Shown in pieces: positions 53 to 20,353 of a stretch of DNA of 20,353 bases. The DNA lies in the IMG/VR virus record IMGVR_UViG_3300037862_000325, positions 1 through 20,353 of that record, one strand, 5' to 3'. Position 1 is the first letter of the stretch. The number at the start of each line of letters is the position of its first letter. The notes below the pieces were generated by a model. That model ran no database searches. It worked only from the letters and a program-made list of their open reading frames with translations, and was not told the origin of the DNA. A program made the translations under genes and the position numbers. Origin of the DNA: a virus.

Positions 53-265
53 ATGAATAAGCTCAAAGAAGATAACGGGGATGTACCCGGCTGGGTACTT
101 ATCACTCTGATGACCGCAGGCCTAGTAGTGTTAAGGCAAAACAGGGTTATTGGCGTGTTGCTATTTTGCGGCGACCCTAGCCGTTGGATACCTCATTTTA
201 GTTTCATTAGCCCTGAGCTCAGAAGGGTTCAAACAAGGACCTTGGATCACAATCCCAGCAAATGA
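53..265 (+). pseudogene. 5' fragment of a small host membrane/pilin-like gene, interrupted by satellite integration
   Basis: The reading frame starts at an ATG with a good ribosome binding site (AAGAAAGGA) and encodes a short charged N terminus followed by GDVPGWVLITLMTAGLVV, the start of a hydrophobic segment. This resembles the N termini of small Flp/TadE-associated membrane proteins seen in Microbacteriaceae (recognised from memory, unconfirmed). Host-derived coding ends at about base 122, inside the hydrophobic stretch. From CTAGT on the DNA matches the left end of the second element (7578 onward), so residues after about 25 are element-encoded read-through, ending at 265. The remaining 3' part of the gene should lie beyond the right end of the array, outside this window. 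The gene is probably inactive or yields a short altered peptide. Confidence 0.55.
97..149. other. attL: host/element left junction
   Basis: Compared with the junctions at 7553-7605 and 15053-15105, this site shares everything from CTAGT (122) rightward, including the AGGGTTA arm at 143-149, but differs to the left, where it reads into the host gene. This is the expected structure of a B-half/P'-half hybrid site. The crossover should lie within or beside CTAGT at 122-126. The exact core dinucleotide cannot be fixed from one junction. Confidence 0.7.
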
Positions 266-332
266 GTATCCAGCCCGAGTCCAACTCGAGAGCTCTGAGG
301 GGTTCGTGTTTTTCGCATAGTTGACAGTTCAT
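219..332 (-). CDS. 37-aa Cys4 zinc-knuckle microprotein at the left end
   Basis: The product starts MNCQLCEKH and ends CWDCDPRSLFEPF. Two CxxC pairs (residues 3-6 and about 25-28) suggest a small zinc-binding fold. The same protein, with one substitution (E for V after the first CxxC), is encoded at the same place in Elements 2 and 3, which argues for real coding. The reading frame stays open upstream of the ATG and nearby sequence is also conserved, so an upstream GTG start (adding a segment with SRVPIFT) is possible; no strong ribosome binding site decides it. It is transcribed toward the host gene fragment. Function unknown. Confidence 0.5.
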   Translation of the reverse strand: MNCQLCEKHEPLRALELDSGWILICWDCDPRSLFEPF

Positions 333-655
333 AACAGTAAAAATAGGCACTCTTGAGATTTCACGTTTTGAGTTATCCACAAGGTGGGACCGAACGGTTG
401 TTTGGAGGAAGAGAAAAAGGCAAATTTCTCAGCCCTTGAGCTTGAAACCCTTAACAAAGTGGAGTGGTGTAGCGTTTTGGGAGGGGGAACGTGAATCTAC
501 GACGGTCAGAGACTGAAGGCATTTAGCCGCTAAAGCGCTTGCGACGAAACCCTTTTATACCCTCCATGGCCATTCACTCACGGACCAAGTTCGTGAGCGC
601 TGCAGGGGTCCTCTTGCGCACAAGCTTCAACAAAAGACAAACGGAAAGCGACAAC
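333..655. other. Noncoding stretch upstream of the lipoprotein gene
   Basis: The first 75 bases or so continue the left-end similarity with Element 2 (7789-7865). The rest, to 655, is specific to Element 1. It should hold the promoter for the rightward lipoprotein gene, but I cannot place -35/-10 boxes with confidence. A frame open from a TTG at 539 into the lipoprotein gene lacks a signal peptide at its N terminus and a ribosome binding site, so I treat it as untranslated leader. Confidence 0.35.
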
Positions 656-1225
656 ATGAGAAAAATAGCAACTGCCCTAATAATCACTGGCGCCCTATTT
701 TTAGGTGGATGCGCACAAGCTGAAGAGGTTGCGCAGCCTAGGCAGGTGAGTCAAGAGGAGTTCAAATCTGCTCTAGATCTAACTCCTTCCTCTTATAACG
801 ATTTCGATGAGATGACCGTATATTCTTCTGGATTCTATTTCGAAGAGGGAGTTGCCTTCACTGTAATCAACAGCCAATACGACGACGGTAGAAACCTGAT
901 TTTTCTGTTGACGACCTATGAGGGGGAAGACTGGATATTTTTCGATTCTATGGACATCCGCTCTGAAGAGGAGACCGTATCTTTATTCAGCGGTCTTCAG
1001 TCATTTGATAAGTTCACGGACGTCCAGGATGGGGTGGTCGAGGAATACATTATGGAACTAGGAGCGAAAGAGATCGATTTGCTTCTTTCCCTTACCAACG
1101 AGTCTAAGTTTCGCCTCGCGGGCGATTCCGGAAGCGTTGAGCGAGCGTTTCGAGATCGAGAGCTATTGCTACTTACGCGTGTGATACACATCTACCTAGG
1201 CCTAGAGCAAGGCCTCACCCCATAA
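656..1225 (+). CDS. Predicted secreted lipoprotein, Element 1 cargo (189 aa)
   Basis: The start at 656 is chosen because GGAAAG lies 8 bases upstream and the product then begins with a classic lipoprotein signal: MRK, a hydrophobic stretch (IATALIITGALFL) and lipobox LGGC with the lipidated Cys near residue 19. The mature protein is acidic, without other membrane segments or motifs I recognise. It is the only convincing rightward gene of Element 1 and sits alone in the slot that in Element 2 holds a zinc-ribbon nuclease-like gene. By analogy with lysogenic-conversion lipoproteins of prophages it could alter the host surface or block superinfection, but this is inference from position and topology only. 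Confidence 0.75.
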   Translation: MRKIATALIITGALFLGGCAQAEEVAQPRQVSQEEFKSALDLTPSSYNDFDEMTVYSSGFYFEEGVAFTVINSQYDDGRNLIFLLTTYEGEDWIFFDSMDIRSEEETVSLFSGLQSFDKFTDVQDGVVEEYIMELGAKEIDLLLSLTNESKFRLAGDSGSVERAFRDRELLLLTRVIHIYLGLEQGLTP

Positions 1226-1445
1226 AACATTGACTCAGGCAGCTAATGTGAAATCGATTGAGATTGCATTGTCTTTGCAAATGTCAGGTGCTGAGAAGGG
1301 CTCCCTTGTTCCCTTAGGAAGAGACAAGGAAAACGGTCTTCGGCTGAGCTGTCTGACAGCACCTCATGGGCTTGCGGCTCACAACAGCCCCCCTTTGGAT
1401 TTCGGGATTTCGTGTTTCTGCTAATCGGCACGGGAGCTAAACCCC

Positions 1446-1480
1446 GACCCCTGGAGGGGGTCTATGCCACTCCCTAGTGC
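1446..1480. other. Conserved GC-rich palindromic block, candidate cos/packaging site (Element 1)
   Basis: The block reads GACCCC-TG-GAGGGG, then a short spacer with CCAC, then CTAGTGC. Element 2 has GACCCC-CCTA-GAGGGG, CCAC and CTAGTGC at 10232-10269, although surrounding DNA is largely different. Conservation of a short noncoding GC palindrome beside a terminase small-subunit system fits a cohesive-end or TerS recognition site imitating a helper phage. An origin or regulatory site is an alternative. Confidence 0.35.
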
Positions 1481-1540
1481 GCTGTAAGGCTATCTGTGGC
1501 TAGGTGTGAGTTCTCTAGTTATCAAGGCCCGCAAAGGGTG

Positions 1541-1617
1541 GGGTGTTGCCCTCTAAGGCGGCGCTAAAGCTCCCTAAAACTCCAAAAGACAGAGCCTTAA
1601 CGCAAAGGGCAACACCC
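1541..1617. repeat. Long inverted repeat with nested stem (Element 1)
   Basis: Outer arms GGGTGTTGCCCT (1541-1552) and AGGGCAACACCC (1606-1617) pair perfectly over 12 bp. Inside them TAAGGC (1554-1559) pairs with GCCTTA (1594-1599). Element 2 has a 13-bp inverted repeat at the same position, just past the end of the coiled-coil gene, with different arm sequence but preserved pairing. The loop is too long and no T-run follows for a standard intrinsic terminator. Confidence 0.7.
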
Positions 1618-1632
1618 GGCATTTGGTTCAAG

Positions 1633-2307
1633 TTAGCTAGCCGCCGCTTTGTATTTGTCGAGCTTCTCGTGAAGAGCCTTTGGGAAGTTCGGGTCTACTG
1701 GGTGAAAGAGCTTTTCTAAGAGCGCGACTATGTCCAAAGTGTGCCTCTCATTCGTAGAGGGGACTTGGAGATTTCCACCGATTCCGAAGTTGTTATCGAA
1801 TTGGACTAAGTCCTTAGTTAGCCCTAGGTTGCTGAGCATGCGAAGTCCCGCGAGAGATTTGCTCCGGGCATCGACTGAGATCATGTAATCGGTCTGTAGC
1901 TTCATAATCGCCGATTGCCATTGGGCTATGCCTTCTTTGGCTTCTCTGAGGCATTCATCGACAATTGCGAGCCGGTTATCTTGGAGTGCCTGGGTAACAA
2001 GTGAGCCCGCTTTTTGCGCCTGAGTGCGAGCGTGCCGGGTGCGTTCAACCTGATAAAGGATTGCTCTTTCTGCTGCCTGAGTTTGGATTGTTCCCGGGTC
2101 TGGCTCTCCGGCAATAGCTGCCGCTTTTAGGGCCATCATGTCTGCGTGCTCAGCTTCTAGCAGTTCGTCTTTAAGGCCGGCAAGAAAAGAATCTTGCTCT
2201 GCGAATTCGAGCTCTGCGATTTTCATTTGGTCAATGAGACTTTGAACCGCCTTTGGGTATTTTATGTTCGCGGTTGTTGGGGTGTTGGCTGGGTATATTT
2301 CGGTCAT
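1633..2307 (-). CDS. Coiled-coil protein shared by the satellites (224 aa)
   Basis: The protein is mostly predicted alpha-helix rich in Ala, Glu, Gln and Lys. It is homologous to the 226-aa product at 10423-11103: both contain YPK near the start, then LI, and a signature AEH-x-DM-x-ALK-x-AAIAGEPDPG around residues 53-72. Similar AEHxD...AGxPDPG proteins occur as hypothetical genes in actinobacterial phages and genomic islands (from memory). It begins at a TAATG junction with the preceding gene (1-base overlap at 2307), so it is translationally coupled and last in the operon. Function unknown; a structural, scaffold-like or packaging-accessory role near TerS is possible but not shown. Confidence 0.75.
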   Translation of the reverse strand: MTEIYPANTPTTANIKYPKAVQSLIDQMKIAELEFAEQDSFLAGLKDELLEAEHADMMALKAAAIAGEPDPGTIQTQAAERAILYQVERTRHARTQAQKAGSLVTQALQDNRLAIVDECLREAKEGIAQWQSAIMKLQTDYMISVDARSKSLAGLRMLSNLGLTKDLVQFDNNFGIGGNLQVPSTNERHTLDIVALLEKLFHPVDPNFPKALHEKLDKYKAAAS

Positions 2308-2600
2308 TAGTTGGGTTCCTTAATCTGTTGGGTTTCTGTGAATGTTTGAGTTAGTGGGTCGTAGTGATAGGCCGCTGCCTCAAGCTCCGGGTAAGCGACA
2401 AGATCCGCCTGGAGTAATGTCACCGGCTGATTAGCTTGTAGCGAGTGGAGCAAGGTTGTTAGGTGTCTATGCCTGGGTGAGGTGATCTCTTCCGGGCCCT
2501 CTTCAATGAGGTTGTTTCGGTAGAGAACTCGAAGAGCCATGTAGAGCTCGTGAGTTAGATCGCTCGGGGCTCCGGTAACTACTTTCTTTAGCTTCGGCAT
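2307..2600 (-). CDS. Small hypothetical protein (97 aa)
   Basis: No recognised family. The frame is joined to both neighbours by 1-base TAATG overlaps (2600 and 2307), which supports translation. Its C terminus, around ELEAAAYHYDPLTQTFTE, resembles the C terminus of the 63-aa protein at 11103-11294 (SYTYDPITRTMKE), suggesting a shared module. The N-terminal half has no counterpart in Element 2. Soluble, no Cys motif, no membrane segment. Confidence 0.65.
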   Translation of the reverse strand: MPKLKKVVTGAPSDLTHELYMALRVLYRNNLIEEGPEEITSPRHRHLTTLLHSLQANQPVTLLQADLVAYPELEAAAYHYDPLTQTFTETQQIKEPN

Positions 2601-2899
2601 TAGATCCGACTCCTAGCCGCTGGAGAGCGATTGCCCCGGCCGGGGTTTGGCTCTTGGATTTTCAAGAGGCTGATTATGCGAGCTGCTGCTAATCGCGCCC
2701 CTCTAACCTCGGTAAAAATGGAGTTCAATCTCATTTGGCCCCGGCTTCCTGGAGTGGTTGCTCCCTCAGCCTCTAGGAGGGCTTCTAAGGTCGCTATATC
2801 GTTGAGTTGAGCTTGAGCTAAAGCGATTAAGTGGAGGTCGTTAGCGCTCCATTCGTGCCGCTCTGAGAGGTCTTGTGAGAGGTCATCTATAAGTGCCAT
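2600..2899 (-). CDS. Probable phage terminase small subunit, P27-like (99 aa)
   Basis: The pattern W-SANDLHLIALAQAQL, then LEALLEAEG, then two helices (RGARLAAARIISLLKI) and a C-terminal SPAARSRI follows the P27-family small terminase layout: helix after a W/D start, 'alleaeG' turn, a packing helix pair and a Ser-Pro-x-x-Arg tail. TerS proteins bind phage pac/cos DNA and recruit the large terminase, normally encoded by the helper. The protein is shorter than the usual 130-170 aa because the basic N terminus is missing. Start has AGAAAGGG 5-9 bases upstream. Its gene overlaps the next by one base (TAATG). Element 2 encodes a fuller TerS elsewhere (9713-10138). Confidence 0.55.
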   Translation of the reverse strand: MALIDDLSQDLSERHEWSANDLHLIALAQAQLNDIATLEALLEAEGATTPGSRGQMRLNSIFTEVRGARLAAARIISLLKIQEPNPGRGNRSPAARSRI

Positions 2900-2916
2900 T
2901 TTTAGGCCCTTTCTGG

Positions 2917-3219
2917 TTAGTAGTGGTTATGGGATTCTTCAATGGTGAAATGCAGTCCCAGCGAGCCACAGCACCTCAACGGTCTAGGGGAGGCCCCCGG
3001 GTGGAGGTCCCTAGCCACCCCTAAAGCATTGTTTCCAGCCCTAGTTGCTCTCGGCATAGACATCACCGCTCGAGTTTCTCTTTCGGTCTCAATGCCTAGC
3101 TCGGCTAAGAAGGGGTTAGTCGGGTTGCTTGAGTTGGTGAGCTCAGAGTTTGCAATCAGCTCGAGGCGGTCTTGGGATTGCATGAGGCCGGTGCTTGGGT
3201 GGTTTCTAATAGCGCGCAT
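2917..3219 (-). CDS. Small hypothetical protein (100 aa), N terminus conserved in Element 2
   Basis: Residues about 7-45 (HPSTGLMQSQDRL ... NPTNPFLAELGIE) match the 63-aa protein at 11103-11294 (HPSNGLGQSQDRL ... NPAKPSLAELAIE), so the frame is real at least in its first half. The C-terminal half is unlike anything in Element 2 and may be diverged or partly frameshifted. The start overlaps the upstream 49-aa gene by 14 bases. Function unknown. Confidence 0.5.
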   Translation of the reverse strand: MRAIRNHPSTGLMQSQDRLELIANSELTNSSNPTNPFLAELGIETERETRAVMSMPRATRAGNNALGVARDLHPGASPRPLRCCGSLGLHFTIEESHNHY

Positions 3220-3355
3220 ACAATCCCCTTTTCAGCGGTTCTAGTGGCATTGGAGATCCAGCTCTGATCCATTGGTTTAGTTCGCTCAGCGTGATCTTGC
3301 GTTGGCGGCCTGTAGGTCGCTTAGCCTTGTGAGTTGCTTTCGGTGTCCTTCTCAT
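3206..3355 (-). CDS. Small basic protein (49 aa), coupled to the ATPase gene
   Basis: The product begins MRRTPKATHKAKRPTGRQRK and continues ITLSELNQWIRAGSP. Element 2 encodes a clear homologue at 11278-11430, with THK-x-KRPTGRQRKITLSE and WxRAGSP conserved. The ATG shares one base with the TGA stop of the ATPase gene (TGATG), so it is translationally coupled. The basic N terminus suggests nucleic-acid binding; the rest resembles a single helix-turn element. It is too short for most automatic gene callers. Function unknown. Confidence 0.65.
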   Translation of the reverse strand: MRRTPKATHKAKRPTGRQRKITLSELNQWIRAGSPMPLEPLKRGLYARY

Positions 3356-4410
3356 CAGAATGTTTCATCCTCTTCATTAGTAGAGATTTGGGGATACTCC
3401 TCCAACCCCACCCTTATAGGGGTGGGGATCTGGTGGAGGTCGGTATTCAGTCCGCCAAATTGTTCTTGGAGGACGGTTGGAGGAGCTGGAGGAAGGCGAA
3501 CACTAACGCTCCGGCCATCTCTGCGAAGTTCAGCTAACCCCCTAGATAAAAGGGCTTCGAGGACTCTCCGGGCGCTTGTCTCGGGAAGCTTGGACCTCCG
3601 TATCCAATTGGCGGAACTTTGCCAATCGAGCTCCAAAACTGCTAAAGCTTTGGACTGCTCCTCCAAGCCGATCTGGAGGAGTTTTGGACCCTGGAGCACG
3701 GCAGAATCTAGCTCCGCTTCTATTGAAAATGGAAGCTCTAAACCCTCTGATCCATGTCGATTCTTTTTGACTGTGAGCTTTAGCCCGGTAGAGGTTTTAC
3801 TAGCAATTAGGACATGATCCGCCATAGCTTCTAATTGAACCGATCCGGAGATACTCGAACCCGGGCCAATTGCAGACTTAGGAGAGTGGGCTAGAACAAT
3901 AATTGAGAGCTCTCCGTTAGAGGCTTCAAAGAGGCTTCTAAAGAGGGTGTGTAGGGCCATAACCTGAGATTGTTCGTTCAGGTTCATTCCTCCGATTAGA
4001 GAGGCTAGAACATCGATTATCAGCACTCGGACACCTTCGGCCGCTAAGTCAATTAGAGGCTTAGATAAGGCCGCATTAGATAGGTCCAGCCTCTCTAAAT
4101 AGCGAAGGTTCTCATAAGGGATAGGGATCCCATTCAGAGACTCCCACGCTTGAAAGCGGTTGAAGGTTAGCCGGGCTGAAGCGTCCGTTGTGGCATAGAT
4201 AACCCGGCCGGAGAGTGCTGCTCTATCGAACCAGTCTTGGCCACTTGCAATAGAAGCGGCTAAAGATTGGGCGATCAGAGATTTTCCAACACCTGGAAGA
4301 CCCGCTAAAAAGGTTAGAGTCCCCTCGACTATGAGATCTTCGACTAGATATCTAGGGGCCGGTGTGGAGGCTAGGGAATCAAATCTAGGTAAAGAGTCGT
4401 AGGCGCTCAT
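3355..4410 (-). CDS. RepA-like RecA-fold ATPase/helicase with C-terminal winged helix (351 aa)
   Basis: Walker A is GLPGVGKS (residues 37-44), Walker B VLIIDVL (129-135), followed by a sensor strand IIVLAHSPK (170-178) and VKKNRHG (214-220), as in RepA/AAA_25 hexameric helicases of plasmids and phages. Residues about 250-305 form a helix-turn-helix or winged helix (SANWIRRSKLPETSARRVLEALLSRGLAE). It probably unwinds DNA at the element's replication origin after excision. The start at 4410 is chosen over the upstream in-frame ATG (4467) because it forms an ATGA overlap with the preceding gene and because the homologue at 11427-12482 starts there with the same length (351 aa). Differences from the Element 2 copy concentrate in the C-terminal 110 residues. 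Confidence 0.85.
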   Translation of the reverse strand: MSAYDSLPRFDSLASTPAPRYLVEDLIVEGTLTFLAGLPGVGKSLIAQSLAASIASGQDWFDRAALSGRVIYATTDASARLTFNRFQAWESLNGIPIPYENLRYLERLDLSNAALSKPLIDLAAEGVRVLIIDVLASLIGGMNLNEQSQVMALHTLFRSLFEASNGELSIIVLAHSPKSAIGPGSSISGSVQLEAMADHVLIASKTSTGLKLTVKKNRHGSEGLELPFSIEAELDSAVLQGPKLLQIGLEEQSKALAVLELDWQSSANWIRRSKLPETSARRVLEALLSRGLAELRRDGRSVSVRLPPAPPTVLQEQFGGLNTDLHQIPTPIRVGLEEYPQISTNEEDETF

Positions 4411-4601
4411 TTTGAGCCTCGAGCCTTTAGGGTGAAATCGTTTCTCAGGCCTTTGATTATTAGCCATAAAACGCGCTCTTGCTCTAGGTGGTCTTCCCTT
4501 AGCTGTTCGTTCTCTCTAAGGGCTTGATCGGTTCCCCAAACAACACCTTCAAAATAAAAGTATTGCTCTCTCGGTGTTAGGTCAGTGAGTATTAGCTGCA
4601 A
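4407..4601 (-). CDS. Small hypothetical protein (64 aa), operon member
   Basis: The product starts MQLILTDLTPREQY, has a charged helical middle (RENEQLREDHLEQE) and a basic tail. The Element 2 homologue (12479-12673) differs at about a dozen residues. The start overlaps the excisionase-like gene by 20 bases and the stop overlaps the ATPase start (ATGA), so its position ahead of the ATPase is fixed and probably couples ATPase translation. A helicase loader or partner role is conceivable. No recognised family. Confidence 0.65.
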   Translation of the reverse strand: MQLILTDLTPREQYFYFEGVVWGTDQALRENEQLREDHLEQERVLWLIIKGLRNDFTLKARGSK

Positions 4602-4728
4602 GGGTCACCCCCTGGGTTAAGTGGCTAGCTTGAACAAAAGACTCAAGCTGATCGAAGGGGATTAGGGTCCTGCGTCCTACTTTTATGATTCGAATGTCAC
4701 TTGGGAGCTCAGTTAGTCTTTTTTCCAT
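4582..4728 (-). CDS. Excisionase/AlpA-like mini DNA-binding protein (48 aa)
   Basis: The stretch DIRIIKVGRRTLIPFDQLESFV (residues 11-32) is the C-terminal half of the MerR/excisionase-type helix-turn-helix: recognition-helix end, VGRR turn, wing, then the xxLxxF helix. The usual first helices (EAAxxLGVS) are absent, because an in-frame stop lies two codons before the ATG. A strong GAGGG ribosome binding site supports this start. It may bind with a partner or in multimers to control excision or operon expression. The copies in Elements 2 and 3 encode the same protein. Serine integrases usually need a recombination directionality factor, and this is one candidate. Confidence 0.6.
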   Translation of the reverse strand: MEKRLTELPSDIRIIKVGRRTLIPFDQLESFVQASHLTQGVTLAANTH

Positions 4729-4865
4729 GAGTCACCCCCTCGAGGTGTTAGCAACACTGTAAGAAGCTGTCGCTGGCTTGCACTCAAGGGCGGGGCTTTG
4801 GCGATGACATTTGAAACATAAACGGCAAGGGCTGAAATAGCCGATTCACTGCAACGCCGGGTCAT
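4713..4865 (-). CDS. Small protein (50 aa) with PPLSxxQRxLL motif
   Basis: The product runs from MTRRCSESAISALAVYV to a tail containing APPLSASQRQLLTVLL. The motif PP-L-S/T-x-x-Q-R-x-x-L-x-x-L is common in tiny proteins beside excisionase genes in actinobacterial phages and integrative elements (from memory). The ATG overlaps the stop of the preceding gene (ATGA at 4862-4865) and its end overlaps the excisionase-like start by 16 bases, giving a chain of coupled genes. The protein is unchanged in Element 2 despite silent DNA differences, which supports coding. Confidence 0.65.
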   Translation of the reverse strand: MTRRCSESAISALAVYVSNVIAKAPPLSASQRQLLTVLLTPRGGDSWKKD

Positions 4866-5101
4866 TTTAAACCTCGGCCCTGCGCGAGTCCCTCAATGAG
4901 GTTTTTTAGGGTTGCGATTTGTGTTTTAGTTAGCGGTGAGAACTCAGCTATGGATTTTGATAATTTTTCGACCAGTTTGCCGAAGCGATAATCCGGTGTT
5001 TTTGATTCAAGACTCAAACGCGCCGAAACTAGTTCAGCGTCTGTTGATATTCGAGACCTTGTTAGTGCCGCGACTCTTGCGCGATCGGAAGTCCAAGACA
5101 T
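4862..5101 (-). CDS. First gene of replication operon, small protein (79 aa)
   Basis: The start has AGGAG 7 bases upstream. The C terminus LTKTQIATLKNLIEGLAQGRG is nearly identical to that of the 76-aa product at 12934-13164 and resembles the PLSxxQRxLL motif of the next gene. The N termini share RARVAAL-x-RSR; the middles differ, so the gene is mosaic between elements. Its stop overlaps the next ATG. A helical DNA-binding or regulatory protein is possible; no family is recognised. Confidence 0.65.
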   Translation of the reverse strand: MSWTSDRARVAALTRSRISTDAELVSARLSLESKTPDYRFGKLVEKLSKSIAEFSPLTKTQIATLKNLIEGLAQGRGLK

Positions 5102-5114
5102 TCCACTCTCCTAA

Positions 5115-5152
5115 GGGATTCAGCAAACTGTAAAAGTTTGCTTATGAATCCC
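5115..5152. promoter_or_regulatory. Inverted repeat ahead of the Element 1 replication operon
   Basis: GGGATTCA and TGAATCCC enclose GCAAACT and AGTTTGC with a short AT-rich centre, broken by a two-base asymmetry. It ends about 13 bases before the ATG at 5101, so in the transcript it would form a strong hairpin right above the ribosome binding site. It could be a repressor operator, a translation-control hairpin or an attenuator without a T-run. Element 2 has no similar repeat there. Confidence 0.5.
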
Positions 5153-5191
5153 TCCGATGAGAGGAACGATGATGCCGCCAGGTAACGGCTT

Positions 5192-5593
5192 TTATACTTC
5201 TCGAAGTATAGCATCTATTTGCGACAAAGAAACTATAAATTTGTTAGATGGAAGTGTCGCAGCAACACCGGCTAACGTCCGAATGACTTCATCGAATTTC
5301 AATCTTGCTTTGGAGCCATCTTTGAGTTGGAAGCTGATCCTGCAAGAAGCGTTTTTAGTTATGTTGTTGCAAAATAGATCAATCCGACCCCTCTCATAAT
5401 CCGGTCTCCCTCCGCCCATTGTTTTCTGCGAGATGGTTTTGTTGCTGCTGTCATAAGTTGGATAGCTAACCATGTTGGCAAAGTCAATCGTTTTTGAGTC
5501 ATCCTCCGAGACGCTTGCATAGACTACAAAGGTGCGCGCATGAGATCGTTCCTTAGTGCCGTCGCAAACTATTTCGACTCTAGCTTTTTGCAT
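5192..5593 (-). CDS. Hypothetical protein (133 aa), positional counterpart of the Element 2 106-aa gene
   Basis: It starts 3 bases after the stop of the DUF6907-like gene (TGA-AAA-ATG) with GGAGG upstream, so the two are co-translated. The N terminus has VCD ... H and the middle has a further Cys pair (LFCNNITKNASC). The C terminus (KFDEVIRTLAGV ... NKFIVSLSQ) resembles in outline the 106-aa protein at 13311-13631 (LNRETLEKL ... GQFKINISK), suggesting distant relationship. The last codons contain the palindrome TATACTTC-TC-GAAGTATA (5193-5210). Function unknown; a small zinc-binding protein is possible. Confidence 0.55.
   Translation of the reverse strand: MQKARVEIVCDGTKERSHARTFVVYASVSEDDSKTIDFANMVSYPTYDSSNKTISQKTMGGGRPDYERGRIDLFCNNITKNASCRISFQLKDGSKARLKFDEVIRTLAGVAATLPSNKFIVSLSQIDAILREV
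5193..5210. promoter_or_regulatory. Palindrome TATACTTC-TC-GAAGTATA, candidate operator/promoter (Element 1)
   Basis: Perfect 8-bp arms with a 2-base spacer sit at the end of the 133-aa gene, about 90 bases before the replication operon start. On the minus strand the arms include TATACT and TATAAA, which could serve as -10 boxes. The position corresponds to that of the SOS box in Element 2, but the sequence is unrelated to a LexA site. Confidence 0.35.
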
Positions 5594-5596
5594 TTT

Positions 5597-6133
5597 TCAG
5601 TCCTCCAAATCTGGGACAATACTCAATCGGTTTGTGCGCTCGATGCCTTCTTCTTTGAGTTGCTGCCACTCTCTCGAATACCAACAGGTTTTGCATTCAT
5701 CACCAGCAACGGCCACAGGTTCGCCACAGTGGCAACGCTCAGGAAGTATTTTCTCAATCACCTTGGCGGCATCCAATAGTGCCTGACCTAGCCTTCTGGC
5801 CTCGATGGCGGTAATTGAATGGTGGGTCAGAGGACTCCAAGCAATACCGGAATCAGGCTCACGATTCCTCACCGATGGATGACCGTGCCAAAACTCAATA
5901 ACAGGCAATCTTCTTCCAGAAACCGCCTCATCTTGCTCAACTCTCACGGCCTGGCAGGGCATGTCCTGAAGCCAAAGATGCTTTTCTTTGAGAATCAGGG
6001 CTGTGTGTTTTCCAACTGTTGCCGGCTCACTCTCATGGGCCCGGCTTTCGTTTAGAACCGATTCAGTCTCACCATGAACCCCAAAGTGCGACTGGCACCA
6101 TTCTGGACATAGAGCTTCTTTTTCGTTTTTCAT
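5597..6133 (-). CDS. DUF6907-like protein with C-terminal zinc-ribbon (178 aa)
   Basis: The N terminus CPEWCQSHFGVHGET, followed by HESEP and a beta-rich region, then LTHHSITAIEARRLGQALLDAA, matches the layout of the actinobacterial DUF6907 family (CPxWC, HE-x-EP, and a helix with EAxxLAxAL). Residues about 134-150 add CHCGEP ... CKTCW, a four-Cys zinc site. Function of the family is unknown; members are frequent in actinobacterial phages and mobile islands. A GGGAGAAG ribosome binding site precedes the ATG. It begins 29 bases after the integrase stop, so it may be co-transcribed with the integrase. Element 2 lacks this gene. Confidence 0.6.
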   Translation of the reverse strand: MKNEKEALCPEWCQSHFGVHGETESVLNESRAHESEPATVGKHTALILKEKHLWLQDMPCQAVRVEQDEAVSGRRLPVIEFWHGHPSVRNREPDSGIAWSPLTHHSITAIEARRLGQALLDAAKVIEKILPERCHCGEPVAVAGDECKTCWYSREWQQLKEEGIERTNRLSIVPDLED

Positions 6134-6162
6134 CTTCTCCCTCTATTTGATTCTCTAATTGC

Positions 6163-7548: not shown

Positions 7549-7552
7549 AACA

Positions 7553-7605: not shown

Positions 7606-7674
7606 TCGGCGTGTTGCTATTTTGCGGCGACCCTAGCCGTTGGATACCTCATTTTAGTTTCATTAGCCCTGAGC

Positions 7675-9575: not shown

Positions 9576-9712
9576 CACTTTCAACACCTCCAATAATCTA
9601 AAAAGAGTCTAGAAGTTCTTTGGTCCGTTAGGACGCTTCCATCATCACTCCCAATAAATTTTCATTCGCTCCAAGACCAGTAGAACCAAGACGAGTTTCC
9701 TTTATGCTTCCA

Positions 9713-13164: not shown

Positions 13165-13279
13165 CTTGTCCTGGCTGTGTTTTTAAACGCAACCCGACAA
13201 AGGTGCTTGGCCCATTACAACTTAAGCCTGAAATGGTAGACAGCAAGATGACCTTGCTTCTTATCAGTATAGCGCATTA

Positions 13280-13297
13280 TTCGAACATTTGTTCGAA
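13280..13297 (-). promoter_or_regulatory. LexA/SOS box ahead of the Element 2 replication operon
   Basis: TTCGAACATTTGTTCGAA is a perfect palindrome outside a 2-base centre and contains TCGAAC-N4-GTTCGA (13281-13296), the actinobacterial/mycobacterial LexA-binding consensus. On the minus strand a TATACT (about 13265-13270) lies 8 bases downstream and can serve as -10 of a promoter overlapped by the box. The site is between the end of the 106-aa gene and the replication operon, so DNA damage should switch on the tiny regulators, excisionase-like protein and ATPase. Confidence 0.8.
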
Positions 13298-13310
13298 CTG
13301 GGCGTGTCGC

Positions 13311-13631
13311 CTAGAACGGCAATTTGGAAATGTTGATTTTAAATTGGCCTTTTGAAATGTAGGCAGAAACAAGTTTTTCCAGGGTCTCCCTATTTAGTCT
13401 TGTCTCCCTGCCACATTTGCACTTTAGGACAAGCCTCTCTTCGTCATCATACGAGGCGTGCTCAGGAACGATTTGGTGCCCCGCAACTCGAACTCTTTCT
13501 GTAGTGAATGAGTAATTTGACCAATCACTTGTATCCGTGTTCGTGTCTGACCTGGAAAATCTTGCAAGTTCAAATCGATCATGTTGACCTTTGTCATCGC
13601 AAACAAAAATCAGGTCCTTAAATACGTTCAT
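13311..13631 (-). CDS. Small zinc-binding-like protein (106 aa), Element 2
   Basis: The start at 13631 is chosen over one at 13703 inside the integrase gene because GGAGAG lies 6 bases upstream. The N terminus has FVCDDKGQHDRF and the middle LKCKCGRETRL, together giving three Cys and a His that could bind zinc. The tail (LNRETLEKLVSAYISKG) is helical. It replaces the DUF6907-like and 133-aa genes found at this place in Element 1, and is possibly related to the latter. Function unknown. Confidence 0.6.
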   Translation of the reverse strand: MNVFKDLIFVCDDKGQHDRFELARFSRSDTNTDTSDWSNYSFTTERVRVAGHQIVPEHASYDDEERLVLKCKCGRETRLNRETLEKLVSAYISKGQFKINISKLPF

Positions 13632-13662
13632 CTTTAGCTCTCCAATTTGATTCTCTAGTTGA

Positions 13663-15048
13663 CTAAATCTGTTTCCAAGTGATTTCAATGTCTGCGGGGT
13701 CAAAAGTTCTTGTGCTCTTTTGCTTTTGAATTTTTACTGACACCAAGGCTTCGACGACACCTCGACGCTGTTGGAAATTCAATTTTTCATGCCAGTGTCT
13801 TTGAATGTCTTCCGCACCGAGTAGGCCAGTGACGACAGGATTACCCTGAGCAGAGTCAATCTTGCTCTGAAGCTTGGCAAGTTCATGGGTGAGCTTCTTG
13901 GAGGCATCCTTCACGGCACTCAAGGTCAATACACCTTCAGCGAGCGCAGTGGCTAGATCATCCTTGCGTGATCGCAATTCAACCGCTTTGGACATAAGGG
14001 GCTCAAGATTTACCTCAGGAGCAAGCATGATGCTGGCATCAGGCATAGATAGCCGGGCTAAAATTATTGCCTCGACAACCTCATCTGTTGCATGCATTTG
14101 TCTCGAGGTGCACCATTTAGAGACGCAGGCATAAGCTATTCTCGTCGTTTTAGTGCCGTCCTTAGCCCTTCGATATTCTGGCCTTGCAAACATTCGTGCT
14201 TCACAAATTCCACACTGGGCATAACCGCTCAATAAATACTTTGTTTTCTTAGAACCGGAATTCGGTTTTGCTCTTCTTTTTGATACTCGCTCATAGGTTG
14301 AAAAAGTTTCTTCGTCAATAATTGGAACCCAGGACCCCTTCGCAAAAAGCGCACCTTTGTATAGGCGTAAGCCTGCATAGGCCGGGTTCTTCAGTCGGAG
14401 CCGGAGGTTCGCCATCGTCCAGCCTTGGCCATCTTGGGCTGTGAGCCCTCTCTCGTTTAGAGAGCGGCATATCGAGTAATAAGTTTCACCTGCGATGTAA
14501 CGCTCGTAGGCTTCGCGAAGAACCGCAGCCTCAGATTCAACGACAACCACTTCACCATTTACTCGGTCATAGCCATAAGGCCTTCGGCTAAATTGCCATA
14601 AGCCTTTTTCCGCTCGCTGTTTATTCGCTGCAACCTGCCTCAGGCCCTTGCGCTTGCCCTCCAACTCGTTTCCAATTCCAAAAAAGTACGCCATGGTTTG
14701 ACCGTCCACGGTGGAGAGGTCAACGTTTCCACCACTCACCGCATGGATCGTTAATGGGTGCTGGCGGATAGTGTCAATCAGGGGAACCAAATCGCTCATA
14801 AGCCTGTAGAGGCGGTCAGTTGCAGCAACGATGAGGATTGTCACCTCGTCGGTCTCGATAGCTCGCATAAGCTCTTGAAACGCCGGCCTTGGCCCTTTGG
14901 TTGCGCTCTTGTTGTTGTCTACGAATTCGCGATTCACACTTAGCCCCAACTTGCTCGCTAAGTCTTGGCACTGTTTACGCTGACGATCAATAGCAAACTC
15001 TTCGCCATCTCGGTCTTTGGACTGTCTAAGGTAAATAACTGTGCTCAT
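13663..15048 (-). CDS. int: Large serine integrase/recombinase of Element 2 (461 aa)
   Basis: Identical product to that at 6163-7548: Ser10 in YLRQSKD, DRLYRL motif, recombinase domain, zinc ribbon (CGIC plus two Cys) and C-terminal coiled coil. Here it is followed by the 106-aa gene rather than the DUF6907-like gene, and it lies directly beside the junction at 15053-15105. Confidence 0.95.
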   Translation of the reverse strand: MSTVIYLRQSKDRDGEEFAIDRQRKQCQDLASKLGLSVNREFVDNNKSATKGPRPAFQELMRAIETDEVTILIVAATDRLYRLMSDLVPLIDTIRQHPLTIHAVSGGNVDLSTVDGQTMAYFFGIGNELEGKRKGLRQVAANKQRAEKGLWQFSRRPYGYDRVNGEVVVVESEAAVLREAYERYIAGETYYSICRSLNERGLTAQDGQGWTMANLRLRLKNPAYAGLRLYKGALFAKGSWVPIIDEETFSTYERVSKRRAKPNSGSKKTKYLLSGYAQCGICEARMFARPEYRRAKDGTKTTRIAYACVSKWCTSRQMHATDEVVEAIILARLSMPDASIMLAPEVNLEPLMSKAVELRSRKDDLATALAEGVLTLSAVKDASKKLTHELAKLQSKIDSAQGNPVVTGLLGAEDIQRHWHEKLNFQQRRGVVEALVSVKIQKQKSTRTFDPADIEITWKQI

Positions 15049-15052
15049 AACA

Positions 15053-15105
15053 TAACCCTATTTCAATTTGGTGCGGACTAGTGGTGTTAGGGCAAAAGAG
15101 GGTTA
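15053..15105. other. attP-like junction between Elements 2 and 3
   Basis: Identical to 7553-7605: TAACCCT and AGGGTTA arms around ACTAGT, next to the integrase start. Confidence 0.7.
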
Positions 15106-15174
15106 TCGGCGTGTTGCTATTTTGCGGCGACCCTAGCCGTTGGATACCTCATTTTAGTTTCATTAGCCCTGAGC

Positions 15175-15288
15175 TCAGAAGGGTTCAAACAAAGACCTTG
15201 GATCACAATCCCAGCAAATGAGTATCCAGCCCGAGTCAAGCTCGAGAGCTCTGAGGGGTACGTGTTTTTCGCATAGTTGACAATTCAT
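15175..15288 (-). CDS. 37-aa Cys4 microprotein, Element 3 copy
   Basis: Identical to the gene at 7675-7788 (CQLC and CWDC motifs). Confidence 0.5.
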   Translation of the reverse strand: MNCQLCEKHVPLRALELDSGWILICWDCDPRSLFEPF

Positions 15289-15446
15289 AAGAGTAAAAAT
15301 AGGCACTCTTGAGATATCCCGTTTTGAGTTATTCACAGGCGGGGTAGATCTTTTTGATGGGCGCAAGTTTGAGGACAGGTGGGATTCGAATGTTGACTAG
15401 CAAATATCTTGGCCCGTGATTCCGCTCTCACTAGGTGTTTGTTCGG

Positions 15447-17075
15447 CTAAAAACTGACATTAGACGATAGGGACGCGAGCTCAAAATTAATGGTTGCAAT
15501 AACAACCGACTCTGAAACTCCCTGCATCGAAAAAGTTTCCGTTTCTCCTCCGAGCCCCCGCATGTCGGCCTTCTCAAGAGCCTGCCCTAAGCCAAGATCG
15601 TGGCGAACATAAATAAAAACTCGTCTTTCTAAATGTTTGATTATGAGACCGTCTCCCGACTCAACCGCATGAATCAGTTCCCAACCTCTTCTCTGAAAGC
15701 TTTGCACTCTGTTGCTTTTGGCGCTCGGATTAGTTATGCCGACTTTGTAGGAATTTTTCTCTGCATTCATAATGAAATAAAGCTTTCCTGGGAGATTTGT
15801 TTTATAAGAACTAGGAGCACAAGCTGGGCATCCTCCCAAGCTGAACCATCTATTAGCTGGCGCGGCAAAATATGGAGGATGAAGGCCAAATGCACATTTC
15901 CACCAATAGCTGTCGTTATTTGCATAAGAAATCTCAGAGATGTCTTTTGAATTCAGTTCGGACTCCCACTCACCAGGCAGGTGAGACCTAAGAGGGTCCT
16001 TGGATGACATCGTAACCAAGTCATTTCTACCCAATTCGAATCTTGCGCACTTAGGGCAGCCACTTCCGTTCGACCTAGTCGTAATGGCGGCTGGCCAACG
16101 ATGAGAACCATTCGAGGAGCAAATCCATTGAAAAACTTTGTTACTAAATTCCACAAAATACTCTGGCCTTTGAGGAAAATTAGCTTCGTAATCCCAGCTA
16201 GAAGCGACTTCGGGCCGTCTGGTTCGCAGGTCGTTGTCTCCCAAAAGAACTCTTTTACCTGCGCAGAATGAGCAGCCCGAACCGTCAGTGACTCGTTCGT
16301 AAGGGGTCATTGGGTAAATATGTAAAGGGTTTTTGTTGCATCTCCAGAGAACTTTTTGACTAGAGCCTGCTCCGAGCGTCCTGCCATCTGGCATGTCTCC
16401 CGGGTTGTCTGATAGCTCGTTGCAGAGTTCTGGATGAGTAGTCTCCAAGTCGTTCTCTCCTGGATAGGGCTCCAATCCTTGGCAAAATCTGCACTTGCTG
16501 CCGTTGGGGCCTACCCGGTTAGAAACCCATGCATCGTGCACGTGACTTTTTTCAGGACACCTCCACCACACTGGCCCGCGATATCCAGTTCCCAAGTTCT
16601 CAGCAGTTAGTTTTCCGTTCAACTCGTCGACTAGCTCCTTAGCAAGTTCAGGTTCAAATTGGCTCAGAGGCCTTCTGGGTCTTTTCTTACATTTGCACCG
16701 CCGCGGAAAATCTCCAGTCACTGCATCCTGGGAAGCGGTGGTGATCTCTCCGCATAAGAGGCATTCGAATTGCGTAATAGTTTTAGCATTTGTGTAGGAT
16801 CCGGTGAGCTGCCAATCTAGATTAAGTAGCTGCTCGGGCAGAGTTTTCAGAAACTCTTTTCGCCTTGTGAGGCGAGCACGATTGTCTCCACACACCCGAC
16901 ATCCGCCCGGCTTGTTCTTTCTTATTAGCTGTCGAATAGTGGCGTGATGAGGGTAAACGGTTTCTCCGCACCCGTGGCAAACGCATTTCCAAGGTTTTCC
17001 TGAGCCCGGGTAAGGATCGTCGGGGAAAAGGCCTCTAGAGATCATGTCCGCGGAGGCGTCTGCCAATTTCAGCAT
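15447..17075 (-). CDS. Multi zinc-ribbon protein with GIY-YIG-like C terminus, Element 3 copy (542 aa)
   Basis: Identical to the gene at 7947-9575: four DUF4379-type zinc ribbons and the C-terminal LYFI ... YKVGIT ... HLERRV domain. Intact, so the array carries two copies of the presumed cargo. Confidence 0.75.
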   Translation of the reverse strand: MLKLADASADMISRGLFPDDPYPGSGKPWKCVCHGCGETVYPHHATIRQLIRKNKPGGCRVCGDNRARLTRRKEFLKTLPEQLLNLDWQLTGSYTNAKTITQFECLLCGEITTASQDAVTGDFPRRCKCKKRPRRPLSQFEPELAKELVDELNGKLTAENLGTGYRGPVWWRCPEKSHVHDAWVSNRVGPNGSKCRFCQGLEPYPGENDLETTHPELCNELSDNPGDMPDGRTLGAGSSQKVLWRCNKNPLHIYPMTPYERVTDGSGCSFCAGKRVLLGDNDLRTRRPEVASSWDYEANFPQRPEYFVEFSNKVFQWICSSNGSHRWPAAITTRSNGSGCPKCARFELGRNDLVTMSSKDPLRSHLPGEWESELNSKDISEISYANNDSYWWKCAFGLHPPYFAAPANRWFSLGGCPACAPSSYKTNLPGKLYFIMNAEKNSYKVGITNPSAKSNRVQSFQRRGWELIHAVESGDGLIIKHLERRVFIYVRHDLGLGQALEKADMRGLGGETETFSMQGVSESVVIATINFELASLSSNVSF

Positions 17076-17212
17076 CACTTTCAACACCTCCAATAATCTA
17101 AAAAGAGTCTAGAAGTTCTTTGGTCCGTTAGGACGCTTCCATCATCACTCCCAATAAATTTTCATTCGCTCCAAGACCAGTAGAACCAAGACGAGTTTCC
17201 TTTATGCTTCCA

Positions 17213-17638
17213 TCAACGTCGGTCACTTGGAGAGAATCCGATAGCTGCAAGCCAACTAGAGATCTGGTTTCTAAGGCTTGATAGTTGCCCAACTAATGGG
17301 TGCGTTACTACTTGGCCATTAGGGGTTATGTATGAGCGTTCGACCTCCCCGGAGGCTAGAAGGTTCCTAATGCTCTCGTATTCGTCCTGGGCTTCGCAAA
17401 GCATTTTGACGATGGTGTGATCTGAATCTGGAGAAATCCAAGTTCTGCCGGCGCTCCAAATGAGGTTCCAGAGCTCTATGCCGGTCGCTGATAGTGGCGG
17501 CGGTGTTGGGATACCTCCAGAGCCTTTTAGGGCCCCTCCGGTTGCCTGTGCGGTGCTATGAATGACGCCTAGCGTGCTAATTGAACCGGTTGCTTTTTTA
17601 GGCCTACCAACTGGGCGGCCGGTCTTTCCTTTTGGCAT
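17213..17638 (-). CDS. terS: Phage terminase small subunit, P27 family, Element 3 copy
   Basis: Identical to 9713-10138: AT-hook-like N terminus and P27 core. Confidence 0.78.
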   Translation of the reverse strand: MPKGKTGRPVGRPKKATGSISTLGVIHSTAQATGGALKGSGGIPTPPPLSATGIELWNLIWSAGRTWISPDSDHTIVKMLCEAQDEYESIRNLLASGEVERSYITPNGQVVTHPLVGQLSSLRNQISSWLAAIGFSPSDRR

Positions 17639-17922
17639 TTCTAACCTTTCTTTTTTGGGCTGTTTAGGACTTGATAGCCCCTAGGGGCATTTATGGAAAA
17701 CATGTCTTTGCTTGGCTGAAAGAGCAACTGTGACCCCCCTAGAGGGGCTCCCCCCACCCCACCTAGTGCCTCTAAAGCCAAAAGCGGCTAAGAATGACTA
17801 ACTATTTATTTATAAGTCTTAGCGAGTGTGTAGGCGTTGGTCTTGCCCTGAAAGTGCAGAGTCTGATTGAGGACTAGATCAGCTACCGCAACAAGACCAA
17901 CGCCCGGGAGTTGGTGCAAGTT
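17639..17922. other. Noncoding block between TerS and coiled-coil genes (Element 3)
   Basis: Identical to 10139-10422. Contains the GC-rich candidate packaging patch (17732-17769) and the long inverted repeat (17833-17904). Confidence 0.5.
17833..17904. repeat. Long inverted repeat (Element 3 copy)
   Basis: Identical to 10333-10404: 13-bp arms GGCGTTGGTCTTG and CAAGACCAACGCC with the nested CTGAT/ATCAG stem. Confidence 0.7.
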
Positions 17923-18603
17923 TTATTTAGCTATCTCTTCCGCTACTTCCGCTAGCTCTGCCTGGGCCTCTAAATGTTTCCCACCTTCGGCGTAGATCTC
18001 TCTGAGGGTTTTGACTAACCAAGCGCTCGACTTATCGGATTCTGGAACCTTGAAGCCTCCGCCTGCGCGATGTATGTTGTCCAGCCCAAATGAGATCTCG
18101 GGCCTAGTTAGGTTCAATTCAAAAACTGTGCGCATACCGTTTATCGACTCGCGCCTTTTTTCGTAGGCCTCTGCAAAATCAATATGGAGTTTCACTAGTG
18201 CGCGGTCCCACTCAGTAGCGCCGTTCTCTAGCATTTCGCAAGCCAGTTCAATGATTACTAACCGGTTCCTCATTAGCGCAGCGTTCACTAAGGCAGTGGC
18301 TTCTCTAACTTGCTTAACCTTTGCTCGGGTTCTTATTGTTTGATACTCGACTGCCCGGGCGGTGTCCGTTGTGGCCTGGATGCCCGGGTCTGGTTCTCCA
18401 GCGATTGCGGCTTCTTTTAGCGCCTCCATGTCGTTGTGCTCGGCATTCCTGTTTTCATCCTCCAACTGATAAAGCTTGGTTCTCTCTTCCTCGTATTGGG
18501 CCATTAGCAATTCGTGGGCCTTTATTAGTTTCTGGATATCCTTCGGGTAGGGCATGTTTGCGACCGCTGGGGTTGTCGGTTGGTCTGTCGGTAGTGAGAG
18601 CAT
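17923..18603 (-). CDS. Coiled-coil protein (226 aa), Element 3 copy
   Basis: Identical to 10423-11103, with the AAIAGEPDPG signature. Confidence 0.75.
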   Translation of the reverse strand: MLSLPTDQPTTPAVANMPYPKDIQKLIKAHELLMAQYEEERTKLYQLEDENRNAEHNDMEALKEAAIAGEPDPGIQATTDTARAVEYQTIRTRAKVKQVREATALVNAALMRNRLVIIELACEMLENGATEWDRALVKLHIDFAEAYEKRRESINGMRTVFELNLTRPEISFGLDNIHRAGGGFKVPESDKSSAWLVKTLREIYAEGGKHLEAQAELAEVAEEIAK

Positions 18604-18794
18604 TATCTGTTTTCCTTCATCGTTCGGGTTATTGGGTCGTAGGTATACGACTGCACTTTGGTTCTGGCTTCAATTGCAAGTTCTGCTAGTGAAGGTTTAG
18701 CTGGGTTGGTTTCGTCTTTGGGCTCAGGTTGTGGGGCTAGGCGGTCCTGAGACTGCCCTAGGCCATTGGAGGGGTGGCTAGGAGTTATTGGCAT
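18603..18794 (-). CDS. Small hypothetical protein (63 aa), Element 3 copy
   Basis: Identical to 11103-11294; overlaps both neighbours. Confidence 0.65.
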   Translation of the reverse strand: MPITPSHPSNGLGQSQDRLAPQPEPKDETNPAKPSLAELAIEARTKVQSYTYDPITRTMKENR

Positions 18795-18930
18795 CAGACA
18801 CCTTTCTTAGCGGTTCGCCTTCGCTTGGAGATCCAGCTCTTAGCCATGCATTGAACTCGGAGAGTGTGATCTTCCTTTGGCGGCCGGTAGGCCTCTTACT
18901 CTTGTGAGTTGCTTTGGGTGTCTTTCTCAA
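18778..18930 (-). CDS. Small basic protein (50 aa, TTG start), Element 3 copy
   Basis: Identical to 11278-11430; KRPTGRQRKITLSE motif, start overlapping the ATPase stop. Confidence 0.6.
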   Translation of the reverse strand: MRKTPKATHKSKRPTGRQRKITLSEFNAWLRAGSPSEGEPLRKVSDANNS

Positions 18931-19982
18931 AAGGTTTCATCCTCTTCATTAGTAGAGATTTGCGAATACTCCGCCACTCCACCCCTTATAGGGGTGGGAG
19001 TTTCTTGGCGGAACTTATTGGCTCCGCCAGATTCTTCGTGGCGGACGCTTGGCGGAGTTGGCGGACGGCGGACGCTAACATTTCGACCCTCTTGGAGTTT
19101 CTCCGCTAAGCCCCTAGAAACAAGGCTTTTGAGAACTCTCCGGGCGGTTGTTTCAGATAGTTCAGTCCGCCGAGCCCATTTGGCGGAACTTTGCCAATCG
19201 AGCTCCAAAACTGCTAACGCTTTGGTTTCGTCCGCCAAGCCGATTTGGCGGAACTTTTCACCCTGGAGGACGGCAGAATCTAGCTGCGCTTCTATTGAAA
19301 ATGGAAGCTCTAAACCCTCTGATCCGTGCCGGTTCTTTTTTACTGTGAGCTTTAACCCGGTAGAGGTTTTACTAGCAATTAGGACATGATCCGCCATCGC
19401 TTCTAACTGCACCGATCCGGAGATACTCGAACCCGAGCCAATTGCGGACTTAGGAGAGTGGGCTAGAACAATGATTGAGAGCTCTCCGTTAGAGGCTTCA
19501 AAGAGGCTTCTAAAGAGGGTGTGCAAGGCCATAACTTGCGATTGTTCGTTTAGGTTCATTCCACCAATTGAAGATGCTAGAACATCGATTATCAGCACCC
19601 GGACACCTTCGGCCGCTAAGTCAATTAGGGGTTTAGATAAGGCTGCATTAGATAGGTCCAGCTTCTCTAAATAACGGAGGTTCTCATAAGGGATAGGGAT
19701 CCCATTCAGGGACTCCCAAGCTTGAAAGCGGTTGAAAGTTAGCCGGGCCGAAGCGTCCGTTGTGGCATAGATAACCCGGCCGGGGAGTGCTGCTCTATCG
19801 AACCAGTCTTGGCCACTTGCAATAGAAGCGGCTAAAGATTGGGCAATTAAGGATTTCCCGACGCCTGGAAGACCCGCTAAAAAGGTTAGGGTCCCCTCGA
19901 CAATGAGATCTTCTACCAGATACCTAGGGGCCGGTGTGGAGGCAAGGGAATCAAATCTAGGCAGGGATTCGTAGGCGCTCAT
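18927..19982 (-). CDS. RepA-like ATPase/helicase (351 aa), Element 3 copy
   Basis: Identical to 11427-12482, with Walker A GLPGVGKS, Walker B VLIIDVL and a C-terminal winged helix. Confidence 0.85.
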   Translation of the reverse strand: MSAYESLPRFDSLASTPAPRYLVEDLIVEGTLTFLAGLPGVGKSLIAQSLAASIASGQDWFDRAALPGRVIYATTDASARLTFNRFQAWESLNGIPIPYENLRYLEKLDLSNAALSKPLIDLAAEGVRVLIIDVLASSIGGMNLNEQSQVMALHTLFRSLFEASNGELSIIVLAHSPKSAIGSGSSISGSVQLEAMADHVLIASKTSTGLKLTVKKNRHGSEGLELPFSIEAQLDSAVLQGEKFRQIGLADETKALAVLELDWQSSAKWARRTELSETTARRVLKSLVSRGLAEKLQEGRNVSVRRPPTPPSVRHEESGGANKFRQETPTPIRGGVAEYSQISTNEEDETF

Positions 19983-20173
19983 TTTGAGCCTCGAGGCTTG
20001 AGAGTGAATTCATTCTTAAAGCCTCTGATTATGAGCCATAAAGATTGCTCTTGCTCTAAGTGCTCTTCCTTGAGCTGTTCAATTTGCCTAAGTCCTTGAT
20101 CGGTTCCCCAAACAACGCCTTCGAAGAAAATATATTGCTCTCTCGGTGTTAGGTCAGTGAGTATTAGCTGCAA
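19979..20173 (-). CDS. Small hypothetical protein (64 aa), Element 3 copy
   Basis: Identical to 12479-12673; 4-base overlap with the ATPase gene. Confidence 0.65.
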   Translation of the reverse strand: MQLILTDLTPREQYIFFEGVVWGTDQGLRQIEQLKEEHLEQEQSLWLIIRGFKNEFTLKPRGSK

Positions 20174-20300
20174 GGGTCACCCCCTGAGTTAAGTGGCTAG
20201 CTTGAACAAAAGACTCAAGCTGATCAAAGGGGATTAGGGTCCTGCGTCCTACTTTTATGATTCGAATGTCACTTGGGAGCTCAGTTAGTCTTTTTTCCAT
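20154..20300 (-). CDS. Excisionase/AlpA-like mini protein (48 aa), Element 3 copy
   Basis: Identical to 12654-12800, with the VGRRTLIPFDQLESF half helix-turn-helix. Confidence 0.6.
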   Translation of the reverse strand: MEKRLTELPSDIRIIKVGRRTLIPFDQLESFVQASHLTQGVTLAANTH

Positions 20301-20353
20301 GAGTCACCCCCTCGAGGTGTTAGCAACACTGTAAGAAGCTGTCGCTGGCTTGC
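20285..20353 (-). CDS. Small PPLSxxQRxLL protein, Element 3 copy, cut by the window end
   Basis: The last 22 codons plus stop of the 50-aa gene (identical to 12785-12853) are visible; its start lies outside the window. Confidence 0.6.
   Translation of the reverse strand, partial: ASQRQLLTVLLTPRGGDSWKKD

Follow-up and report, generated by a model that had tools for sequence, protein, structure and literature searches.

The DNA analysed here, referred to as the window, comprises the entire IMG/VR record IMGVR_UViG_3300037862_000325 (20,353 bp, virus class, no flanking genome included). It carries two related mobile elements which are probably phage satellites of an uncultured actinobacterium resembling the phage-inducible chromosomal islands (PICIs), arranged head to tail at a single chromosomal site. 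Self-comparison of the record revealed a head-to-tail layout with a period of 7,500 and the order host chromosome (1-121, plus strand), element 1 (123-7578, minus strand, 7,456 bp), element 2 (7579-15078, minus strand, 7,500 bp) and a partial copy of element 2 without any mismatch (15079-20353, minus strand), which is ended by the end of the record. A preliminary description based on the sequence alone had proposed two diverged elements of about 7.5 kb between positions 122 and 20353. Its start position coincides with the attL core and both the size and the count of two diverged elements hold, but the third, partial element had been overlooked.

Both elements share one gene plan on the minus strand, consisting of the integrase, one or two element-specific genes, a chain of small genes, a helicase, further small genes and the gene of a coiled-coil protein. 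The large serine integrase of element 1 (6163-7548, minus strand; phrog_95, E 1.9e-88) is identical to that of element 2 (13663-15048, minus strand; 0 mismatches), whereas the remainder of the elements differs by about 12% or more. The RepA-like ATPase named in the preliminary description was recovered as an AAA_25 helicase in element 1 (3355-4467, minus strand; AAA_25, E 1.3e-21) and in element 2 (11427-12482, minus strand; RepA of plasmid RSF1010, 1g8y, E 2.8e-5). Across the 235 N-terminal codons the two helicase genes are separated by 44.5 synonymous and 6.5 non-synonymous changes; the resulting ratio of non-synonymous to synonymous substitution rates (dN/dS) of 0.04 indicates a functioning gene under strong purifying selection.

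The small-gene chains (4407-5101, encoding 64, 48, 50 and 79 aa, in element 1 and 12479-13164 in element 2, both minus strand) are open reading frames (ORFs) overlapping by 1-20 bases, and a further overlapping gene of 49 aa is located at 3206-3355 (minus strand) in element 1. The proteins of the 48- and 50-aa genes (4582-4865 and 12654-12937, minus strand) are identical between the elements while the neighbouring genes differ by 12% or more, and relatives of the 50-aa gene were found near several related integrases. The coiled-coil proteins (1633-2307 and 10423-11103, minus strand) are 35% identical and both contain the motif AEHxDM...IAGEPDPG. The shared gene plan is thus as previously described, although the identity of the integrases had not been noted. 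Neither portal, capsid, tail and large terminase genes nor a lysis gene were recognised among the window ORFs scanned (Pfam and PHROGs for the structural and packaging genes), the former in line with the preliminary description, and no relaxase or conjugation gene was detected among those scanned in Pfam.

Attachment sites and chromosomal target

The element boundaries adjoin the integrase start (~7578 and ~15078). Positions 7575-7843, directly upstream of the start of the integrase gene, have a counterpart at 119-388 that is 94% identical. The agreement of the two copies breaks off at a CT dinucleotide (122-123 and 7578-7579), with 56 matches among 60 bases on its right and a chance level of 6 of 25 on its left. 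At 7578-7579 the CT is central in a 55-bp site (7552-7606) where elements 1 and 2 meet; this site is characterised by perfect 8-bp inverted arms (ATAACCCT...AGGGTTAT); an identical, second attP-type junction lies at 15052-15106. Located beside the serine integrase gene, the site at 7552-7606 looks like attP, and 97-150, with the crossover at CT 122-123, would then be the attL of element 1. The sharp CT boundaries together with the junction sites define the extent of element 1 (from attL to the attP junction) and element 2 given above.

The chromosomal part preceding attL encodes the start of a short protein (53-121; MNKLKEDNGDVPGWVLITLMTAGLV), which is cut at about codon 24. When 296 actinobacterial genomes were sampled with a 26-aa query derived from it, matches were obtained in 18 (best E 5e-8, identity up to 78%). 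The homologues extend 20-25 residues further (..VxxxWxxAG..), and the copy in the window therefore represents the 5' part of a short conserved gene truncated by the integration. Its neighbours in one of the genomes (locus L062) were read by eye as pilus-assembly (tad) proteins. On this sequence basis the serine integrase is shown to have recombined the adjoining attP with a target within a gene of the tad locus. The gene at attL as well as the best matches of integrase, helicase and the small terminase subunit (TerS) support the assignment of the host to the actinobacteria, as the preliminary description had assumed.

A small CxxC protein is encoded beside the attachment site in both elements (219-380 and 7675-7866, minus strand; 94% DNA identity) and is a candidate recombination directionality factor.

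TerS genes and cargo of the two elements

The TerS of element 2 (9713-10138, minus strand) is of the P27 or phiC31 gp31 type. It passes the Pfam gathering score for Terminase_4 (33.1 versus 24.7 bits; E 7.4e-8), and its identity to both phiC31 gp31 and the TerS of a Streptomyces phage amounts to about 35%. The corresponding protein of element 1 (2600-2899, minus strand; phrog_1496, E 0.005) remains below this cut-off (14.5 versus 24.7 bits). It shares 41% identity with a TerS from another actinobacterial genome (L065), which itself matches phrog_1496 with an E of 3.3e-10, and it is only because of this homologue and phrog_1496 that we refer to the element 1 protein as TerS. The earlier assignment of both proteins to P27 is hence valid for element 2, while the TerS of element 1 fails the Pfam threshold and is supported via its homologue and phrog_1496. 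Profile comparison did not confidently join the two lineages (12.8%).

The position of the TerS genes also differs. In element 1 TerS is located between a gene for a 97-aa protein (2307-2600, minus strand) and one for a 100-aa protein (2917-3219, minus strand). According to the DNA alignment element 2 is devoid of this TerS block between helicase and coiled-coil gene; its own TerS lies beyond the coiled-coil gene. At the place of the block element 2 contains a 63-aa gene (11103-11294, minus strand), in which the N-terminal part of the 100-aa gene is fused with the end of the 97-aa gene. The scores of the two protein matches were reached by 0 of 2,000 and 2 of 2,000 shuffles, and the fusion is also seen in the DNA alignment. 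This scar had not been noticed previously.

The simplest reading of these data is an exchange of packaging genes, in which element 2 would have arisen from an element-1-like ancestor by loss of the original TerS block, leaving the fused gene behind, and by gain of a TerS of another lineage. The reverse direction, an insertion of the TerS block into an intact 63-aa gene, could also account for the fused gene. However, L065 likewise has a small gene (about 100 aa) immediately after a TerS of the element 1 lineage, and this gene order speaks for the arrangement with TerS being the older. The replacement of TerS is most simply read as a switch of the helper phage.

The cargo differs between the elements. 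That of element 1 is a lipoprotein-like ORF without family assignment (656-1225, plus strand); element 1 also has two specific genes encoding proteins of 133 and 178 aa (5192-6133, minus strand). As cargo, element 2 encodes a 548-aa protein with DUF4379 treble-clef repeats (7947-9593, minus strand; DUF4379, E 1.9e-44) which resembles an endonuclease (phrog_681, E 2.4e-28), is not present in element 1 and has no match in PADLOC. Apart from marginal helicase matches, the scan for defence systems was negative for the proteins tried.

Relatives in actinobacterial genomes

Whole actinobacterial genomes were searched after pattern searches of IMG/VR had given nothing. Relatives of the integrase (E < 1e-40) were detected in 31 of 396 genomes, all from one order. 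In five of the 31 loci the integrase gene is located beside the same tad-locus gene (L027, L030, L035, L037, L054), and in three more this gene or the tad locus lies within 10 kb (L060, L062, L069). One element with a related serine integrase (L062:9850-18076) appears to cut a TadA/CpaF-like gene. Integrases of this group may thus target the tad pilus locus in general, possibly at the expense of pilus function. Four elements with related integrases harbour a single HK97-type capsid gene, mostly together with a RepA-like helicase (L058, L060, L061, L072); the first three are located at the tad locus and the last one adjoins a ComM/YifB-like gene.

The TerS lineage of element 1 was found in 21 of the 396 genomes. 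Among the 20 loci read, TerS adjoins a large terminase gene in a few prophages (L105, L110, L115), but many loci are small elements with integrase, helicase, helical protein and TerS. The preliminary description had raised the possibility that homologous loci always sit inside full prophages. This is not the case, since six stand-alone elements of 8.9-12.1 kb outside prophages are bounded by perfect direct repeats of 20-50 bp. These are L119 (9.0 kb, 27-bp repeats at the 3' end of the glutamine synthetase gene glnA), L108 (50 bp, tRNA-Arg), L109 (28 bp, tRNA-Val), L098 (32 bp), L099 (26 bp) and L113 (20 bp). In twelve of the TerS loci, comprising 149 ORFs, the families listed include ten TerS, seven tyrosine integrases and one serine integrase, seven AAA_25 proteins, four tape-measure proteins and one capsid protein.

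L119, the decisive relative, was detected when the coiled-coil proteins alone were used as queries (E 1.7e-4, one genome among the 396). Its gene order is tyrosine integrase, helix-turn-helix (HTH) repressor, AAA_25 helicase, WhiB-like gene, small genes, coiled-coil gene, TerS and a 109-aa gene, with the repressor gene divergent from the helicase gene. The helicase matches that of the window, the coiled-coil protein is of equal length (226 aa) and the TerS matches phrog_1496 (E 1.3e-12). Thus, an independent genome keeps helicase, coiled-coil protein and TerS together and in the same order, alongside a different integrase.

In L119 the coiled-coil gene is preceded by a small gene (L119:8836-9219, plus strand), in whose product the motif known from the C-terminus of a phage head scaffolding protein occurs twice (phrog_2592, E 4.3e-11). 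In SaPI1, CpmB redirects the capsid size by mimicking the tail of the scaffold of the helper (PMC5644958). Judging from its motif, the L119 protein is likely a scaffold mimic for capsid redirection which would be convergent with CpmB. A motif of this type could not be shown in the window, and the 49- and 50-aa genes considered as its carriers were not supported.

Full-length tape-measure genes were observed in four small TerS elements (L065:9431-12310, L099:5166-8705, L100:6553-9120, L101:9599-12346), in which genes for further tail proteins, a capsid or a large terminase were not seen; these elements perhaps set the tail length of the particles of their helper. Two further candidates were dismissed. 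The 260-350-aa proteins upstream of TerS in L108, L109, L113 and L114 could not be assigned to the coiled-coil family by profile comparison, and L007, considered as a relative because of its ATPase, reads as an ordinary phage contig according to its neighbours (a DNA polymerase fragment and large phage-type genes).

Interpretation as probable phage satellites

We regard it as probable that the window contains two related PICI-like satellites at one chromosomal site of an actinobacterium. This interpretation is based on the att-bounded integration in a conserved actinobacterial gene, the presence of TerS, the selected helicase, L119 and its stand-alone kin, and the scar of the TerS exchange. 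It upholds the satellite lineage proposed in the preliminary description, with the life cycle still to be read as an inference. Following infection by a helper phage or induction the element would be excised and the RepA-type helicase would drive the replication of the excised circle. The satellite TerS might then redirect the large terminase of the helper to the satellite DNA, which would be packed in heads made by the helper; these would either take up head-to-tail copies or be of smaller size. The coiled-coil protein might assist packaging or assembly; its recurrent place near TerS and the hairpin model fit such a role and prove nothing.

Several points weigh against this interpretation. 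Neither helper nor induction nor particle was seen, so that the life cycle is deduced from the genes, and the host is identified no further than actinobacterium. The window contains no recognisable master regulator family. For the coiled-coil protein, neither a confident structure (helical hairpin model, mean predicted local distance difference test score 59.6) nor a significant fold match was obtained. No relatives were found in IMG/VR with the patterns tried (ATPase, coiled-coil protein, integrase, att DNA and TerS), and INPHARED gave no DNA match. In the twelve TerS loci, large terminase and portal are missing from the 25 commonest families listed for the 149 ORFs, which limits this negative result to those families. 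Since phrog_2 is a poor probe for actinobacterial large terminases, those of phiC31 and phiPsal1 were used as additional queries and gave no match in the same loci.

Alternatively, the elements could be decayed prophages that kept integrase, replication and TerS genes by chance, as TerS, serine integrase and helicase all have their best matches in actinophages. This is highly improbable considering that every core frame is open and tightly overlapping, that the dN/dS of the helicase is so low, and that elements of 9-12 kb flanked by att sites show the same compact plan in combination with different integrases. The resemblance of the helicase to RepA of plasmid RSF1010 would be compatible with integrative plasmid-like elements using other routes of replication or transfer, with TerS as passive cargo, all the more as the packaging of the elements is itself an inference. 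Such a scenario seems unlikely, since the ORFs scanned in Pfam include no relaxase or conjugation gene and many loci have TerS and helicase together, TerS being replaced rather than lost. It also seems rather unlikely that the record stems from a phage particle and represents a single long DNA molecule, i.e. a satellite concatemer packed in situ from the chromosome. The head-to-tail copies with attP junctions do resemble the packaged concatemers of the phage-inducible chromosomal minimalist islands (PICMIs; PMC10803314), but one end consists of the chromosomal attL and two different elements are contained in one molecule.

A further reservation concerns the array alone and is compatible with the satellite explanation. 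Positions 13663-20353 equal 6163-12853 base for base (6,691 bp, 0 mismatches), from which the third, partial element was recognised as the same as element 2. A homologous recombination between a circular element 2 and the resident integrase gene would yield the observed stacking. Equally, an assembler could have crossed from element 1 to element 2 via the identical integrase gene and read a circular or tandem element 2 twice, in which case the satellites would be real and the array would not; the partial copy may be an assembly wrap-around. That the exact repeat begins precisely at the integrase stop codon and that the record terminates within the copy of element 2 speak for such an artefact, to which we give a substantial chance, though one short of even. 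On the other hand, short-read assembly normally collapses a repeat of this kind, and although element 1 diverges at the stop codon, 16 of the next 18 bases still match, like the edge of a natural recombination. The existence of the elements and the attL are unaffected by this doubt, but the array itself must be confirmed by reads.

Compared with known satellites, the elements resemble the PICIs (SaPIs and those of Gram-negative bacteria) in having an integrase at one end, a replication module of their own and a small size, in lacking structural and lytic genes and, as some PICIs do, in encoding TerS. Regarding the PICI features given in PMC6092414, integrase and replication module are represented by the serine integrase and the AAA_25/RepA helicase, the latter in place of pri-rep. 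In contrast, the elements are smaller (7,456 and 7,500 bp versus about 12-15 kb), and instead of a master regulator and divergent organisation they have integrase and replication genes on one strand and no recognisable stl- or alpA-type regulator. Due to their size and to the regulator and organisation we do not file them as PICIs. Attachment sites of PICIs are described as unique and never used by prophages (PMC6092414); at the gene targeted here, some elements with related integrases carry a capsid gene, for instance L058. The best explanation appears to be that the elements work like PICI-type satellites, as a variant without capsid genes.

The mycobacterial candidate PICIs and phiRv1 (PMC10654092) are likewise small actinobacterial elements proposed to be satellites, in some cases with a serine integrase. 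They are defined by integrase and major capsid gene, whereas the window elements have TerS and no capsid gene; it is their relatives L058, L060, L061 and L072 that carry one. The PICMIs of Vibrionaceae (PMC10803314) are minimal satellites packaged as concatemers, and the window shows similar head-to-tail junctions. However, PICMIs are devoid of TerS, encode AlpA and a primase and reside beside fis, while the window elements have TerS and a tad-locus target. Mulch and Flayer (PMC10690885), satellites of Streptomyces phages, likewise belong to phages of Actinomycetota, but their gene content is the opposite of that described here, with genes for encapsidation machinery and without key replication genes. 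L119 and its kin share helicase, coiled-coil protein and TerS in one operon without large terminase and have att repeats; they differ by the tyrosine integrase, the HTH repressor and the small gene with two scaffold-tail copies.

Satellites of actinobacteria have been suspected before (PMC10023795, PMC10654092). The described candidates rest on capsid genes, and the capsid-free, TerS-bearing kind reported here recurs in many genomes. There is almost an even chance that these elements represent a class of their own among the satellites of actinobacteria, one that is widespread, is defined by the combination of RepA helicase, helical protein and TerS, has no capsid genes and uses interchangeable tyrosine or serine integrases. 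Two of its members would be stacked at one attB, one having replaced its TerS to follow a different helper, with co-residence and module exchange via the shared integrase. The readable attP and half of attB may provide a new integration tool. With the states before and after a TerS replacement preserved in nature, a switch of helper through exchange of the packaging gene can be tested directly. The two elements illustrate how parasites of phages seem to trade the one gene determining which virus supplies the particle they travel in.

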